From the NCBI RefSeq assembly GCF_014196835.1, contig NZ_JACIEK010000001.1, positions 124,001 to 188,000 of the forward strand: a stretch of DNA of 64,000 nucleotides. The letters are read 5' to 3'. How positions within the stretch are numbered: the stretch's first letter is position 1; every line of letters starts with the position of its first letter. This DNA comes from Aureimonas pseudogalii (GTDB taxonomy: Bacteria > Pseudomonadota > Alphaproteobacteria > Rhizobiales > Rhizobiaceae). The notes beneath the pieces were generated by a model. That model made no database searches, was not told the DNA's origin, and saw nothing but the letters and a program-made list of their open reading frames with translations. A program made the position numbers and the translations under genes. Of this stretch, positions 4,722 through 42,144 are shown in pieces.

Positions 4722-4797
4722 GGGCCTGTAGCTCAATGGTTAGAGCCGGCGGCTCATAACCGCTTGGTTGCAGGTTCGAGTCCTGCCGGGCCTACCA
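4722..4797 (+). tRNA. tRNA with CAU anticodon, probably tRNA-Ile2 (lysidine type)
   Basis: A complete 76-base cloverleaf with encoded CCA. Acceptor 5' strand GGGCCTG pairs with CGGGCCT (two G-U pairs); D-arm GAGC/GCTC; anticodon stem GGCGG/CCGCT around loop CTCATAA, giving anticodon CAT; T-arm GCAGG-TTCGAGT-CCTGC. A CAU anticodon can be initiator Met, elongator Met or Ile2. The CTCATAACCGCTTGGTTG stretch closely resembles bacterial tRNA-Ile2, whose C34 is converted to lysidine by TilS so that it reads AUA. Elongator tRNA-Met is the alternative. Confidence 0.93.
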
Positions 4798-36556: not shown

Positions 36557-39500
36557 ATGTCCGAGCCCAAGACGCCCAAGCCCCGCCGTTCGCCGATCCT
36601 CGATTTTGCCGACGCCTCAGAGCGCTTGACGCCCGGTTTCGCCGAGGCGCCGCAGGCCTCGTTCGAGGGCGCGCCCCTCACCGGCCCGCTGTCAGGTTGG
36701 GCCGACGAGATCGCCCAGTCGCTGGAGGTGGAGGCCGAGCGCGCCGCCGATGCGCCGAAGGCCGCGAAGAAGGCGCCCACTGCGAAGAAGCCCGCCAAGG
36801 GCGAGGCCGCGCCGGCCGCCAAGACCGGCAAGACCGCGCGCGGCACCTCGATGGGCATCGCCGCCACGCCCACCGAGCGCGCGCGCGCCGGGCTCAATCC
36901 CGTGTCGGGCATGGACGTCTCGCTGGAGGATGCCGGGATGCTGCCCGAGGGCGGCGTCACCGCCACGGTGGAGGCGCTGACGCGGCTGATCTCCGAGGGC
37001 AACCCGCTTCTGAAGAACGGCGAGATCTGGGTGCCGCACCGCCCGGCGCGGCCCTCGAAGTCGGAAGGCGGCCACCGCTTCCGCCTCTCGTCCGACTACG
37101 AGCCGAAGGGCGACCAGCCCACCGCCATCCGCGATCTCGTGGCCGGCATCAGCGAGGACCAGGACCAGACGCAGGTGCTGCTCGGCGTCACCGGCTCCGG
37201 CAAGACCTTCACGGTGGCCAACGTCATCGAGCGCACGCAGCGCCCGGCGCTGGTGCTGGCGCCCAACAAGACGCTGGCAGCGCAGCTCTACGGCGAGTTC
37301 AAGAACTTCTTCCCCGACAACGCGGTGGAGTATTTCGTCTCCTACTACGACTACTATCAGCCCGAGGCCTACGTGCCGCGCTCCGACACGTTCATCGAGA
37401 AGGAATCCTCGATCAACGAGCAGATCGACCGGATGCGCCACGCCGCCACGCGCGCGCTGCTCGAGCGCGACGACGTCATCATCGTCGCCTCCGTATCCTG
37501 CATCTACGGCATCGGCTCGGTCGAGACCTACACGGCGATGACCTTCCAGATGGCGGTGGGCGACCGGCTCGATCAGCGCCAGTTGCTCGCCGATCTCGTG
37601 GCCCAGCAATACAAACGCCGCGACATGGACTTCACCCGCGGCTCGTTCCGCGTGCGCGGCGACACGATCGAGATCTTCCCGGCCCACCTCGAAGATCGCG
37701 CCTGGCGCATTTCGCTCTTCGGCGACGAGATCGAGGCGATCCACGAGTTCGACCCGCTCACCGGCAGCAAGTCCGACGACCTCAAGTCGGTGAAGATCTA
37801 CGCCAACTCGCACTACGTGACGCCGCGCCCGACGCTGCAGCAGGCGGTGAAGTCGATCAAGGAGGAGCTGCGGCTGCGGCTCGTCGAGCTGACCAAGGCG
37901 GGGCGCCTTCTCGAAGCGCAGCGGCTGGAGCAGCGCGTCGGCTTCGACATCGAGATGATCGAGGCCACCGGCTCCTGCCAGGGCATCGAGAACTATTCGC
38001 GCTACCTCACCGGGCGCCAGCCCGGCCACCCGCCGCCGACGCTCTTCGAATACCTGCCCGACAACGCCCTCGTCTTCATCGACGAGAGCCACGTCACCAT
38101 TCCGCAGATCGGCGCGATGTACCGGGGCGACTTCCGCCGCAAGGCGACGCTGGCCGAATACGGCTTCCGCCTGCCCTCCTGCATGGACAACCGGCCACTG
38201 CGCTTCGAGGAGTGGAACGCCATGCGCCCACCCACCGTCGCGGTGTCGGCGACGCCGGGCTCGTGGGAGCTGGAGGAGGCCGGCGGCGTCTTCGCCGAGC
38301 AGGTGATCCGCCCCACCGGGCTCACCGATCCGCCGATCGACATCCGCCCCGCCAAAAGCCAGGTCGACGACCTCCTCGGCGAGATCCGCGAGAAGGCGGC
38401 CGTCGGCTACCGCTCGCTCGTCACCGTGCTGACCAAGCGCATGGCGGAGGATCTCACCGAATACCTGCACGAGCAGGGCATCCGCGTGCGCTACATGCAC
38501 TCCGACATCGACACGCTGGAGCGCATCGAGATCATCCGCGACCTGCGGCTCGGCACGTTCGACTGTCTCGTCGGCATCAACCTGCTGCGCGAGGGCCTCG
38601 ACATTCCCGAATGCGGCCTCGTCGCCATTCTCGATGCCGATAAGGAGGGCTTCCTGCGCTCCGAGACCTCGCTGATCCAGACGATCGGGCGCGCCGCGCG
38701 CAACGTCGACGGGCAGGTGATCCTCTATGCCGACCGCGTCACCGGCTCGATGGAGCGCGCCATCGCCGAGACCAACCGGCGCCGCGAGAAGCAGGAGGCC
38801 TACAACGCCGCCAACGGCATCACGCCGGAATCGGTGAAGGCCAAGATCGCCGACATTCTCGACAGCTACTACGAGAAGGATCACGTGCGCGTGCCCACCG
38901 GCGCGCATGCCGCCTCGGGCGCCATGGTCGGCAACAACCTGAAGAGCCATCTGGAGCATCTGGAGAAGGAGATGCGCCACGCGGCCGCCGATCTCGACTT
39001 CGAGACGGCCGCGCGCCTGCGCGACGAGATCAAGCGCCTGCAGGCGACCGAGCTCGCCATCGCCGACGATCCCCTCGCCCGCACGCCCGAAATCGACATG
39101 TTTGCCGACGGCCCCACCGCCAAGCCGCGCGCCACGCCGCGCCCGCGCGGCAAACCCACTGCCAACCGCGAGAACCCGCGCTTCGGCCCCAACGGCGAAC
39201 CCCTCGCCGCCCGCATCAAGCCTGCCGATCATTCGGGCGTGCGCGCCCTCAACCGCGCCGACGCGTCCTCCTCTCCGCGAGGGGGAGACGATGCGGACGG
39301 GGGCACGAGGGGCGACGGCGCGTCGACGTCAGGCTACTTCGCCAAACCCTCGCTCGACGACATGGGCCCGGGCACCGACACGGCGACGCCGAACCGCCCG
39401 CTCTTCCGCAAGAACTCGCTGGACGAGATGACGGTCGGCCGCACCGAAAAGCCCCTCCACGCCGGCCCCCTCCCCCCGAAGCCCGGCGACGACCTCAAGC

Positions 39501-39601
39501 CGGTGCGGCGCGAGAAGATCGGTGCGGGGAGTTACGAGGACCCGGCGGACGAGAAGCGGCGGAAGCGCCGGCCGGGGAAGACGGGACGGCCGGGGCGTTG
39601 A
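36557..39601 (+). CDS. uvrB: UvrABC system protein B, with long terminal extensions
   Basis: 1014 residues against about 670 in E. coli. It is the damage-verifying helicase-like subunit of nucleotide excision repair. The canonical part begins near residue 174 ([17 protein letters not shown]). It has Walker [14 protein letters not shown] near residue 210, the beta-hairpin segment [20 protein letters not shown], the [11 protein letters not shown] motif II, helicase motifs V and VI ([21 protein letters not shown]), and a C-terminal UVR motif ([23 protein letters not shown]) ending near 830. An Ala/Lys-rich N-terminal extension of about 170 residues and a disordered tail of about 185 are added, as in other Hyphomicrobiales. 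SOS control is expected, but no LexA box was seen. Confidence 0.96.
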
Positions 39602-39613
39602 AACGGCAGAGGA

Positions 39614-39802
39614 TTATTTTTTTACAAGACCCTTTGATCTTAGAGCGTGAGCAACAGAAGCTTTTCTTTCGAGAAATACATTAGCCACTGACTTCGAAAC
39701 ATCCCCCTCCAACTTAGAAGAGATCCTTGGATCCTTCTTTGTTGCTATTGGAAGGAGAAGAGACATTTGGAATGGTGCGGCTGGCTTCCCGTCGCGCGTC
39801 AT
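39614..39802 (-). CDS. Putative small ORF overlapping the 3' end of the deaminase gene
   Basis: 62 codons from an ATG at 39802. The first two thirds overlap the end of the deaminase gene in another frame, while the last 100 bp lie beyond its stop and read as a sensible basic peptide (SVANVFLERKASVAHALR, ending GLVKK). No ribosome-binding site is evident, so translation would depend on the upstream gene. It could be a real small downstream partner, a frame-shifted remnant of a longer C-terminus, or chance. No family recognised. Confidence 0.3.
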   Translation of the reverse strand: MTRDGKPAAPFQMSLLLPIATKKDPRISSKLEGDVSKSVANVFLERKASVAHALRSKGLVKK

Positions 39803-41309
39803 CGTTAACAACCTCCGATTCTGATATAGCGTTCGCGAGGACTATTTGTTCCCGACTGACAAGGGAATCCAGAGCCGGGGCAGCAACAGGTCGTGCTTCT
39901 TTTCGGTTTTTTGCGATAGCGCTACCGTTCGCTTTGCGGTCCCCAAACATTCCAAAAACCCGGTTAAAGCTGCCCGGAGCCACGCCTTCATACTGAAGAA
40001 ATTTTACCTTCCCACCTTCAGACTCAGACATAGTAATCGAGTCAGAGTGAAGTGTCAGTGCGAGGCTTTTTGGATATGGCTCTATATATAGAACTTTATC
40101 GATGCCGCTAGCAACTATATGCCTCGCGCAGCTGTGGCAAGGAAACGTAGTAGTGTATAATGAAGATCCAACTATTCCACCATTCCCTTGGCGAGCAACG
40201 GAGATAATAGCTTCCATTTCTGCATGTACGGCACGGGAAAATTCAATCAATGATTGAACTCCGCTTCTTTTTATATTTTCCTTTACATTTTCAGTATTTA
40301 CTGACGAACCTAACCCTTTTGATATTTGCTCTATTATACCTATCTTATGCTTGTCGTTCCAGCATATTTTGTTTTTCCATTTGAAGCATCGGTGATCGCC
40401 CGAGCTATCATCAGAGTTATACGTTCCCCCACCAAACCTAGGGACGTCATTCGCCCCTCTGCCGATGACTTCCCCCGTAGCAGATATGATGACGGCCCCG
40501 ACTTGACGTGACAAGCACGCGGACCCTAGCGCGGCACCTGCCGCCCCATGCATCGCAACTTCATCCTTGCTTGGCGTCTCAACAGATATACCGAAAATCA
40601 ACCGCAGAAATCTATCTATTGAAGTAGATAGCTTTTCTTCATTCGGCTGATCATTTCGGATGAATACATCCGCACCGGACATTGTCTTTCGAACGGACTG
40701 GCCATGCTCCAATCCCTCATCAAAGTCCGCGCTCTTAATTTTCTCTACATAGGAACTACTTCCTAATGAGCTCTCAACTCTTTCGATACGAATCTTTTCA
40801 GGAGCAAACACACCCATAAGCCAAAAAGAGTCGCCATAAACCTCCCTTAAAAGTTCGACCTCCTCTGGGTGCTTCAAGGAGTCAACAATGGTACAGAGTC
40901 TACGATCGCGAGGAGTGTCATCACCCTCGCGACTCTTGTAAATTCTATCTACAGCGATGGATGAAAGGACGTGATTTCCGAATTTCTCTCGGAGTTGATT
41001 CCCTATTGCCTGCAGCTTTTCCACCCGACCGGGATCACCAGCATCGACAGTAGCAGTCCCAGAATAGGTTTGCATAATTTTACTAAGTTTTATATAATCG
41101 ACTTCATAGCCATAATCTTCATTCAGTTTTTTACTAAGAATACTTGCAGTAGTCGTTGCACCCGACCCAACAGGTGCGACCATTCCAATTACTAGTTCTG
41201 CTGTTTTCCTCTCTGCCAGATTGAAAAATCGTTCTTCGCCCGCGTCCGAACTAGGAGCAGAACTAGGACGACGGCTGTAGAATTTTAGCTTCTCCGTAGC
41301 CGACGCCAT
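39714..41309 (-). CDS. avcD: AvcD-type anti-phage dCTP/dCMP deaminase
   Basis: 531 residues. The N-terminal half is a P-loop NTPase-like domain with GMVAPVGSGATTT (residues 42-54), and VDYIKLSKIM and CTIVDSLKHPEEV downstream. The C-terminal half is a cytidine/deoxycytidylate deaminase with the zinc site intact: His362-Ala-Glu364 (AVHAEMEAII) and Pro390-Cys391-x-x-Cys394 (TFPCHSC). This two-domain layout is that of AvcD/dCTP deaminases, which on infection deplete cellular dCTP and dCMP and stop phage replication. The ATG at 41309 has a strong AAGGAG site seven bases upstream. GC content and codon use are far lower than in both flanks, marking horizontal transfer. No integrase is near. Confidence 0.9.
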   Translation of the reverse strand: MASATEKLKFYSRRPSSAPSSDAGEERFFNLAERKTAELVIGMVAPVGSGATTTASILSKKLNEDYGYEVDYIKLSKIMQTYSGTATVDAGDPGRVEKLQAIGNQLREKFGNHVLSSIAVDRIYKSREGDDTPRDRRLCTIVDSLKHPEEVELLREVYGDSFWLMGVFAPEKIRIERVESSLGSSSYVEKIKSADFDEGLEHGQSVRKTMSGADVFIRNDQPNEEKLSTSIDRFLRLIFGISVETPSKDEVAMHGAAGAALGSACLSRQVGAVIISATGEVIGRGANDVPRFGGGTYNSDDSSGDHRCFKWKNKICWNDKHKIGIIEQISKGLGSSVNTENVKENIKRSGVQSLIEFSRAVHAEMEAIISVARQGNGGIVGSSLYTTTFPCHSCARHIVASGIDKVLYIEPYPKSLALTLHSDSITMSESEGGKVKFLQYEGVAPGSFNRVFGMFGDRKANGSAIAKNRKEARPVAAPALDSLVSREQIVLANAISESEVVNDDARREASRTIPNVSSPSNSNKEGSKDLF

Positions 41310-41593
41310 TCCGCACTCCTTAGCTGTATGTCGCGAGCTTCCTTCAATTTGAAGACGTACGCAAGTCCTCGCCACCACGTATCACAGTCGGTTCAGGATG
41401 TGATATGAATGGGCTTAGGACCACGAGGTGGCAGCCTTCGCATTCACTCAATAATAAACGTTGTGCGACGGTAGAATCTCTTCTGCTCTTACCGATCCTA
41501 TCACGCACTTTTTCGCTAAGGACCCAGGCTCTCGCGGTGGAAGGTGGAGGCGGTCGAGATATTTTACCGACATGACAGCGCTCAAGGAGACGC
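41310..41593 (-). ncRNA. Candidate AvcI-like antitoxin RNA or long leader of the deaminase gene
   Basis: About 284 bases between a TATAAT box (41600-41605) and the deaminase start. In characterised systems a small RNA, AvcI, encoded just upstream of avcD keeps the enzyme inactive until phage shut-off of transcription. Here the segment has no convincing protein: an 83-codon TTG frame (41344-41595) lacks a good site. It contains a stem TATCACA/TGTGATA (41380-41405, 12-base loop) and a CCAC-CTC-GTGG element near 41421-41431. The assignment rests on position and structure only; AvcI primary sequence is poorly conserved. Confidence 0.35.
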
Positions 41594-41599
41594 AATTTG

Positions 41600-41605
41600 A
41601 TTATA
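41600..41605 (-). promoter_or_regulatory. Perfect -10 box upstream of the deaminase locus
   Basis: TATAAT on the minus strand within CCCGGTATAATCAAATTG. The hexamer 17 bases upstream is CTTTAT, a weak -35 match. Transcription would begin near 41593 and give a leader of about 284 bases. This near-consensus AT-rich -10 is unlike the GC-rich host intergenic regions. Confidence 0.45.
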
Positions 41606-41823
41606 CCGGGCTTTCGAACTTCATAAAGCTTTGAATTTTTAATTGTTTGTATTTTTCAAGCGCTTAAGTAAGGAAATAACAGACTAAAATTCTTTATTTC
41701 TATGAATAATAAAGTATTTTATACTTAAACATCGTTGAAATATTATGACGCAGAGCCTATAGAATTTTTCCTACACGCCTTTCCTTGCCTGTGAATAGCT
41801 CTGCGTTCAAATGTAAACTAGCA
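41606..41823. other. AT-rich non-coding segment at the island boundary
   Basis: About 220 bp of very AT-rich DNA with no ORF longer than about ten codons. It holds a palindrome AAGTAT-TTT-ATACTT (41712-41726). Composition returns to the host's high GC at about 41830, within the last codons of the next gene, so this marks the right edge of the acquired island. No direct repeat or tRNA was found at either edge. Confidence 0.5.
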
Positions 41824-42144
41824 CTACCAGTTATACCCATCCCATTCCCCCCGCCGCTCTCGCCGATCCATCCGTCGATGATCTCGCTGGCGCTCCAGAC
41901 GGCGCGCTTCACGCGGCGACAGGTGGCGGCGGTCGCGGTCGCGGCGGATGTCGCGGCGTTGGAGGTCGCGTGAGTTGGTGATGCCGCGGGCGGCGTTGGC
42001 GCGGGTCTGCATCTCGATCCGGTCGTTCAGCCGCTGCTCGGCGGCGTTGCGCGGCGCGGAGGGCAGCACCAGCGTCTGCGCGGCGGCCGGGAGCGAGGTG
42101 AGGGCCAGGAGGCCCGCCAGGGCGGGGATCAGGAAGCGCTTCAT
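41824..42144 (-). CDS. Small secreted Arg-rich protein (paralogue A)
   Basis: 106 residues. A signal peptide (MKRFLIPALAGLLALTSLPAAAQ) is followed by an ordered-looking segment (PRNAAEQRLNDRIEMQTRANA) and an extremely Arg-rich helical tail (RRHLSPREARRLERQRDHRRM). The tail repeats almost word for word in the protein encoded 250 bp upstream (42395-42694), so the two are tandem paralogues. Periplasmic; function unknown. Its 3' end abuts the AT-rich island. Confidence 0.75.
   Translation of the reverse strand: MKRFLIPALAGLLALTSLPAAAQTLVLPSAPRNAAEQRLNDRIEMQTRANAARGITNSRDLQRRDIRRDRDRRHLSPREARRLERQRDHRRMDRRERRGEWDGYNW

Follow-up and report, generated by a model that had tools for sequence, protein, structure and literature searches.

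What is the gene that forms the only AT-rich stretch of an otherwise GC-rich piece of DNA, and why does it lie directly behind uvrB? Here, we address this question for a window of 64 kb, i.e., the whole stretch of DNA that was analysed. Our answer, which we hold to be highly probable, is that the gene encodes an AvcD-family deaminase and is carried by a 2.2-kb cassette that lacks mobility genes. The cassette is one of those found at a recurrent defence hotspot, bounded by the 3' end of uvrB and its convergent neighbour, and we infer that such cassettes are exchanged through the flanks. The features are collected in Table 1.

Table 1. Features of the avcD locus in window coordinates.
Feature	Coordinates	Strand	Basis or remark
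uvrB, left core flank	36557..39601	+	DNA similarity to relatives stops at or close to the uvrB stop codon
AT-rich cassette, 2222 bp, GC 0.454	39602..41823		lies between the stop codons of uvrB and of the right-hand gene
avcD-type gene, 531 aa: degenerate P-loop (aa 42-54) in a kinase-like N-terminal domain, plus a zinc deaminase	39714..41309	-	ORF, profile matches, alignment
286-nt leader before avcD, sole stretch where an AvcI-like RNA might lie	41310..41595	-	position; fold z -1.48
Small secreted-protein gene, right flank	41824..42144	-	matched by tblastn close to the site in 12 of the 14 genus genomes with an island, counting the window

The first-pass annotation had described a complete AvcD-type protein that joins a P-loop NTPase domain to a deaminase with an intact zinc site. 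The reading frame is indeed intact; it starts with the ATG at 41309 and contains zero internal stops (an alternative, longer frame of 554 aa begins at a GTG upstream of this ATG). The zinc site consists of HAE at residues 362-364 and PCHSC at 390-394, and its residues H362, A363, E364, P390, C391 and C394 are invariant across 54 aligned rows, which comprise 53 different sequences. This comparison set comprises RefSeq-named and profile-found members; the biochemically characterised AvcD stands outside the alignment, and the shorter matches L122, L138 and L140 were left out for their length. The P-loop description holds in part: the motif GMVAPVGSGATTT is present at residues 42-54, but the position of the Walker-A lysine (column 51) is not a lysine in the window protein or in any of the 54 aligned rows, so that "P-loop NTPase" is to be read as "degenerate P-loop".

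The assignment to the AvcD type is borne out by the NCBIfam model NF041025 (anti-phage dCTP deaminase), which scores 465.1 bits at a curated cut-off of 400 and is matched from position 1 to 437 of 437, with the kinase-like domain aligned across its N-terminus. The PADLOC dCTPase profile gives E=2e-159, and a PHROG without a name, comparable in length, matches at 1.5e-103. Within the N-terminal part, residues 93-225 show weak PDB matches to AdkA-like kinases (E 2.4e-4). The window protein thus has the same kinase-like degenerate-P-loop domain and HAE/PCxxC zinc deaminase as AvcD and the anti-phage dCTP deaminases of NF041025 and the PADLOC profile, and is 37.7-41.1% identical to RefSeq-named members on plasmids of E. 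coli, Klebsiella and Photobacterium. It is an AvcD-family anti-phage deaminase, whose placement passes the curated family threshold and whose activity is predicted from the sequence, and thus adds a divergent member to a defence family that is already known.

The contrast between AT-rich gene and GC-rich flanks noted at first pass is pronounced. 1-kb windows have a GC content of 0.454-0.488 inside the island, and the lowest value elsewhere in the 64 kb is 0.621. By codon position, avcD has 0.54/0.44/0.42 versus 0.67/0.48/0.93 in uvrB, which amounts to 0.417 versus 0.928 at the third position. The neighbours are those originally named, and the island borders are sharp at the uvrB stop codon. 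A repeat search found no repeats framing the island, and the single tRNA of the window, which is also its sole Rfam match at gathering threshold, lies at 4722-4797.

The gene is present in one copy in its own genome. Among 101 genomes (the own genome, 20 congeners and 80 others), the window AvcD was matched in four: in the own genome, in G036 (a match of 60%), in G025, and in G039, where the match comprises 49 residues at deaminase level with 25 bits. The protein is absent from all 20 same-genus genomes searched. Of 397 genomes sampled across the order, 25 have an NF041025 match (23 pass the cut-off), and of 385 sampled across the class, 18 have one (14 pass), the own genome included in both cases. 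avcD also occurs on plasmids, and phage records contain two near-full matches (>80% coverage) besides 885 partial ones which, among those listed, are dCMP deaminases or uncharacterised. A scan of viral_contigs yielded no relative.

Turning to the site itself, all 21 genus genomes, the own genome included, have a match to the 3' end of uvrB. For 18 relatives, 5-16 kb around this end were taken, which together with the window gives 19 genus sites; the other two congeners are covered by about 1.2 kb only, which looks AT-rich in G017 and less so in G014. An AT-rich insert starts at most 1 kb from the uvrB stop codon in 14 of the 19 sites, the window among them. For comparison, two AT-rich blocks were found in 168,734 bp farther downstream at the same genus loci. 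The horizontally acquired defence island proposed at first pass is upheld as to acquisition by the non-host codon composition and the absence from the congeners; as a lone event it is not, since the hotspot is recurrent.

Different cassettes occupy the uvrB site in related genomes. The islands measure approximately 1.05-2.2 kb, with one cassette per site, and DNA similarity stops at or near the uvrB stop codon in genomes that share the same C-terminal tail. An all-against-all blastn of the 14 inserts gave short matches only, within a retron pair and within an ATPase-TOPRIM pair, and G002 and G015 carry wholly different cargo with uvrB bodies that are 96.7% identical. On the right-hand side, the two island-bearing sites with a deviating neighbour (Table 1) are those of G020 and G009. 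Comparison of the borders of all 19 sites by eye revealed no common end sequence on either side. An empty site had been expected in close relatives. No exact empty allele was found among the genus sites; most hold other cargo, and in the five island-free congeners uvrB is followed by other genes. Because there is no empty allele and the occupants are various, the site is better termed replaceable than empty-or-filled.

Many occupants of the 13 other genus islands match known defence families. G001 carries a Drt2 (2.7e-122), G006 a Drt6/Drt4-like gene (Drt6 3.4e-144), and G008 and G015 a retron II-A with NDT effector. ATPase-TOPRIM proteins with AriA/OLD-like matches were found in G004 and G020, PDC-M31A (1.9e-75) with a weak M31B in G009, a dGTPase-like HD protein (3e-10) with a Panacea-like partner (below the Pfam cut-off) in G012, and a Schlafen/AlbA_2 protein in G018. 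PADLOC matches are missing for the Panacea protein and partner of G002, the GHKL-type ATPase of G010 (below the Pfam cut-off; L049:3215-5194), the DUF4238 protein of G016 (L059:11640-12500) and an unrecognised 399-aa protein of G019 (L061:11134-12333). In raw counts, PADLOC matched five of the 13 islands at E <1e-60 and four more weakly, partly at the level of generic ATPases, and left four without a match. None of the 18 cargo proteins of these islands was recognised as an integrase or transposase by Pfam. As a side observation, the occupants of G010, G016 and G019 are candidates for unknown defence genes.

Beyond the genus, a conserved UvrB piece was matched in 58 of 61 family genomes, the own genome included. 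Longer stretches were taken from 39 family genomes and from G160, which belongs to another family; one stretch is cut by a contig end, so that 38 family genomes enter the count. An AT-rich block starts at most 1 kb from uvrB in 15 of these 38 (16 of 39 with G160), where the first kilobase was known beforehand for 12 of the 38 and, among these, G043, G118 and G101 were picked partly for low GC. In the subset chosen without a prior look at the site, 11 of 21 are occupied. In 22 of the 38, an AT-rich block is absent from the first ~3 kb. Farther downstream, four such blocks occur in 203,777 bp, three of which start 1.1-1.6 kb from uvrB.

The family sites are likewise diverse. They hold a retron III-A (G118, G044), a retron XII RT-TIR (G033), an RT with NDT (G022), AriAB (G057, 1.4e-197), GmrSD-like cargo (G023), SIR2 with a ParA-like gene (G117), a Beta protein (G030), a RelA/SpoT-like PDC-S33 (G037) and an HD protein with Panacea (G102); the islands of G101, G040 and G107 have no PADLOC match. 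Over 14 of the 15 occupied sites (the small ORF of G043 was left out), PADLOC gave, again in raw counts, eight matches at E <1e-19, three weaker ones and three cases of none. The mobility scan covered a part of the family sites; outside it, L152 has an ORF that looks like an IS66-type transposase.

Two observations at these sites deserve mention in their own right. A pair of an HD-domain gene and a Panacea-like gene is common to L056 (G012) and L168 (G102), and hence occurs at uvrB in two genera. In G113, a P-loop kinase domain (AAA_17) is fused to an adenylosuccinate synthetase (3.4e-57) at L169:3411-5015. Its kinase domain weakly matches the dCTPase profile (8.3e-6). The fusion, which adjoins a gene of 218 aa (L169:2762-3418), is a candidate nucleotide-pool defence gene.

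How often does avcD itself adjoin uvrB? Besides the window, 54 avcD loci were compared (13 plus 41, the latter with flanks of 1.5 kb), and most of these genes are located elsewhere. uvrB is the neighbour in four of them (L035, L036, L043, L116), namely in Neorhizobium vignae, Brucella daejeonensis, the MAG CAULO1 and G160, in convergent orientation throughout. The gap from stop to stop is 112 nt in the window, 349 nt in N. vignae, 207 nt in B. daejeonensis and 658 nt in CAULO1. In the tree built from the AvcD alignment, the window protein forms a clade with those of Neorhizobium and Brucella (support 100/98); the AvcD of G160 sits on a distant branch, and that of CAULO1 stands beside a Bradyrhizobium protein which is not at uvrB. 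The label "adjacent to uvrB", carried by five rows, requires three changes on this tree, compared to a mean of 4.9 after shuffling, and one of 500 shuffles was as low. The Neorhizobium and Brucella proteins are 78% identical in AvcD and 72% in UvrB. As AvcD is thus more alike than UvrB, the data fit a movement of avcD between genera in which the address was kept, as recombination in uvrB would give.

Alternative readings concern either the enzyme or the site. The enzyme could be a housekeeping dCMP deaminase of the ComEB/DCTD type that serves thymidylate supply. Its C-terminal domain is after all a dCMP/cytidine deaminase (PF00383, 4.3e-17), and among solved structures those closest in sequence are dCMP deaminases of a single domain, with the T4 enzyme as the best PDB match. 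The housekeeping-type model ComEB, however, reaches 42.6 bits, far below its cut-off of 219, against the score of NF041025 over its full length, and the window protein has an extra N-terminal domain. Being absent from 20 of 20 congeners, avcD is not an essential housekeeping gene, and we regard this reading as very improbable. Equally improbable is a functional reason for the vicinity of avcD and uvrB, by which uracil-containing DNA and its repair would be linked. The independent captures of avcD at uvrB, as counted on the tree, speak in its favour, but UvrB acts in nucleotide excision and not in uracil-base excision. Moreover, many unrelated systems occupy the same place, so that the association is due to the site rather than to the deaminase.

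As for the site, it might be no defence site at all but a neutral space between two convergent genes, in which foreign DNA of any kind accumulates. Convergent gene ends tolerate insertion, and the cargo of G002, G010, G016, G019, G040, G101 and G107 lacks a defence match. Known defence families in 5 of 13 other genus islands and 8 of 14 scanned family islands, as raw counts at the respective PADLOC thresholds, argue the other way; neutral integration and selection for defence are in any case compatible with each other. On balance, we find a purely neutral gap unlikely. The cassette might also be what is left of an element (prophage, satellite or integrative) that inserted at uvrB by means of its own integrase and has since lost it. 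This would agree with the sharp borders at the uvrB stop codon, and with avcD on plasmids and, twice at the coverage given above, in phage records. It is quite improbable in view of the genus islands, whose 18 scanned cargo proteins include no integrase or transposase, of the lack of framing repeats and, by eye, of a shared border end sequence, and of the viral_contigs scan, which found no relative. We therefore keep to a hotspot of defence cassettes, whose exchange would proceed through homologous recombination in the flanks that are conserved, chiefly in uvrB.

How the window enzyme would act can be proposed after the characterised AvcID system. There, according to PMC10511110, AvcD deaminates dCTP and dCMP and is inhibited by the AvcI RNA, and phage shut-off of transcription allows AvcI to decay. 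By analogy, the window enzyme would be made but kept inactive, probably by an RNA antitoxin; a phage that halts host transcription would let this antitoxin decay, and the freed AvcD would convert dCTP/dCMP to dUTP/dUMP and starve phage DNA synthesis. The parts needed for the deaminase half are seen in the window protein, and the RNA half is what we infer from AvcID.

A candidate RNA was sought in the leader of avcD. Its predicted fold is equalled by 14 of 200 shuffles, Rfam gave no match for it up to E 1, and a TATAAT is seen by eye at 41605-41600 on the minus strand upstream of it. A promoter scan returned eight promoter-like sites, compared to 3.0 in shuffles, none of which was chosen as avcD promoter, and zero terminators. 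Nothing conserved with the window emerged when the upstream stretches of 13 avcD loci, and then gammaproteobacterial ones, were compared by blastn, nor did searches by repeats, sliding fold z-scores and small upstream ORFs find anything conserved between the window and its relatives. Hence we make no AvcI claim here.

Other avcD loci show features of their own in this region. In Nitrosovibrio tenuis (L040:5283-5787), avcD is preceded by 180-nt tandem repeats that contain an apparent tRNA 5' part, followed by a full-looking tRNA-Phe (identity by eye). The plasmid-borne avcD genes of E. coli, Photobacterium and Klebsiella (L141, L142, L143) are preceded by a small annotated ORF of approximately 56-60 codons, whose predicted products end in KW or RW; the same stretch would hold AvcI.

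Two such kinds of hotspot are already on record (PMC10250203, PMC5635113): those in which short cassettes replace one another, and those that lack an integrase and have core flanks that recombine. The uvrB site resembles the replacement-type, core defence hotspots of PMC10250203 in its core-gene flank, its short, non-homologous cassettes that replace each other, and its low GC; cDHS2 of that study also holds a dCTP deaminase and retrons, as does the uvrB site across the family. It differs from those accounts in the uvrB flank, in that each genus site holds a single cassette of some 1.05-2.2 kb, in the comparison between species and genera, and in that no mobility gene was found in the genus islands. 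With the integrase-free hotspots it shares the lack of an integrase and the diverse content; here, the comparison is between species, and recombination in the flanks would be the presumed route. A defence hotspot downstream of uvrB was not found described in the literature searched, which covers few subscription journals.

From a biological point of view, the site matters more than the deaminase, whose enzyme family is already known. We give an even chance to a wider reading, in which single anti-phage cassettes are exchanged without an integrase at the 3' end of uvrB throughout the family, and perhaps throughout the class Alphaproteobacteria; the unknown genes found there would then be new defence genes, including the G113 fusion, whose target would be the purine nucleotide pool, in the way that AvcD targets the dC pool. 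This raises the testable question whether homologous recombination in a conserved flank can move defence genes from one species to another with no integrase involved. If the end of uvrB marks defence cassettes, candidate anti-phage genes of the family could be listed simply by reading past uvrB, and genes at this site without a known defence match, i.e., the GHKL ATPase, the DUF4238 protein, the 399-aa protein and the kinase-adenylosuccinate synthetase fusion, would be among them.
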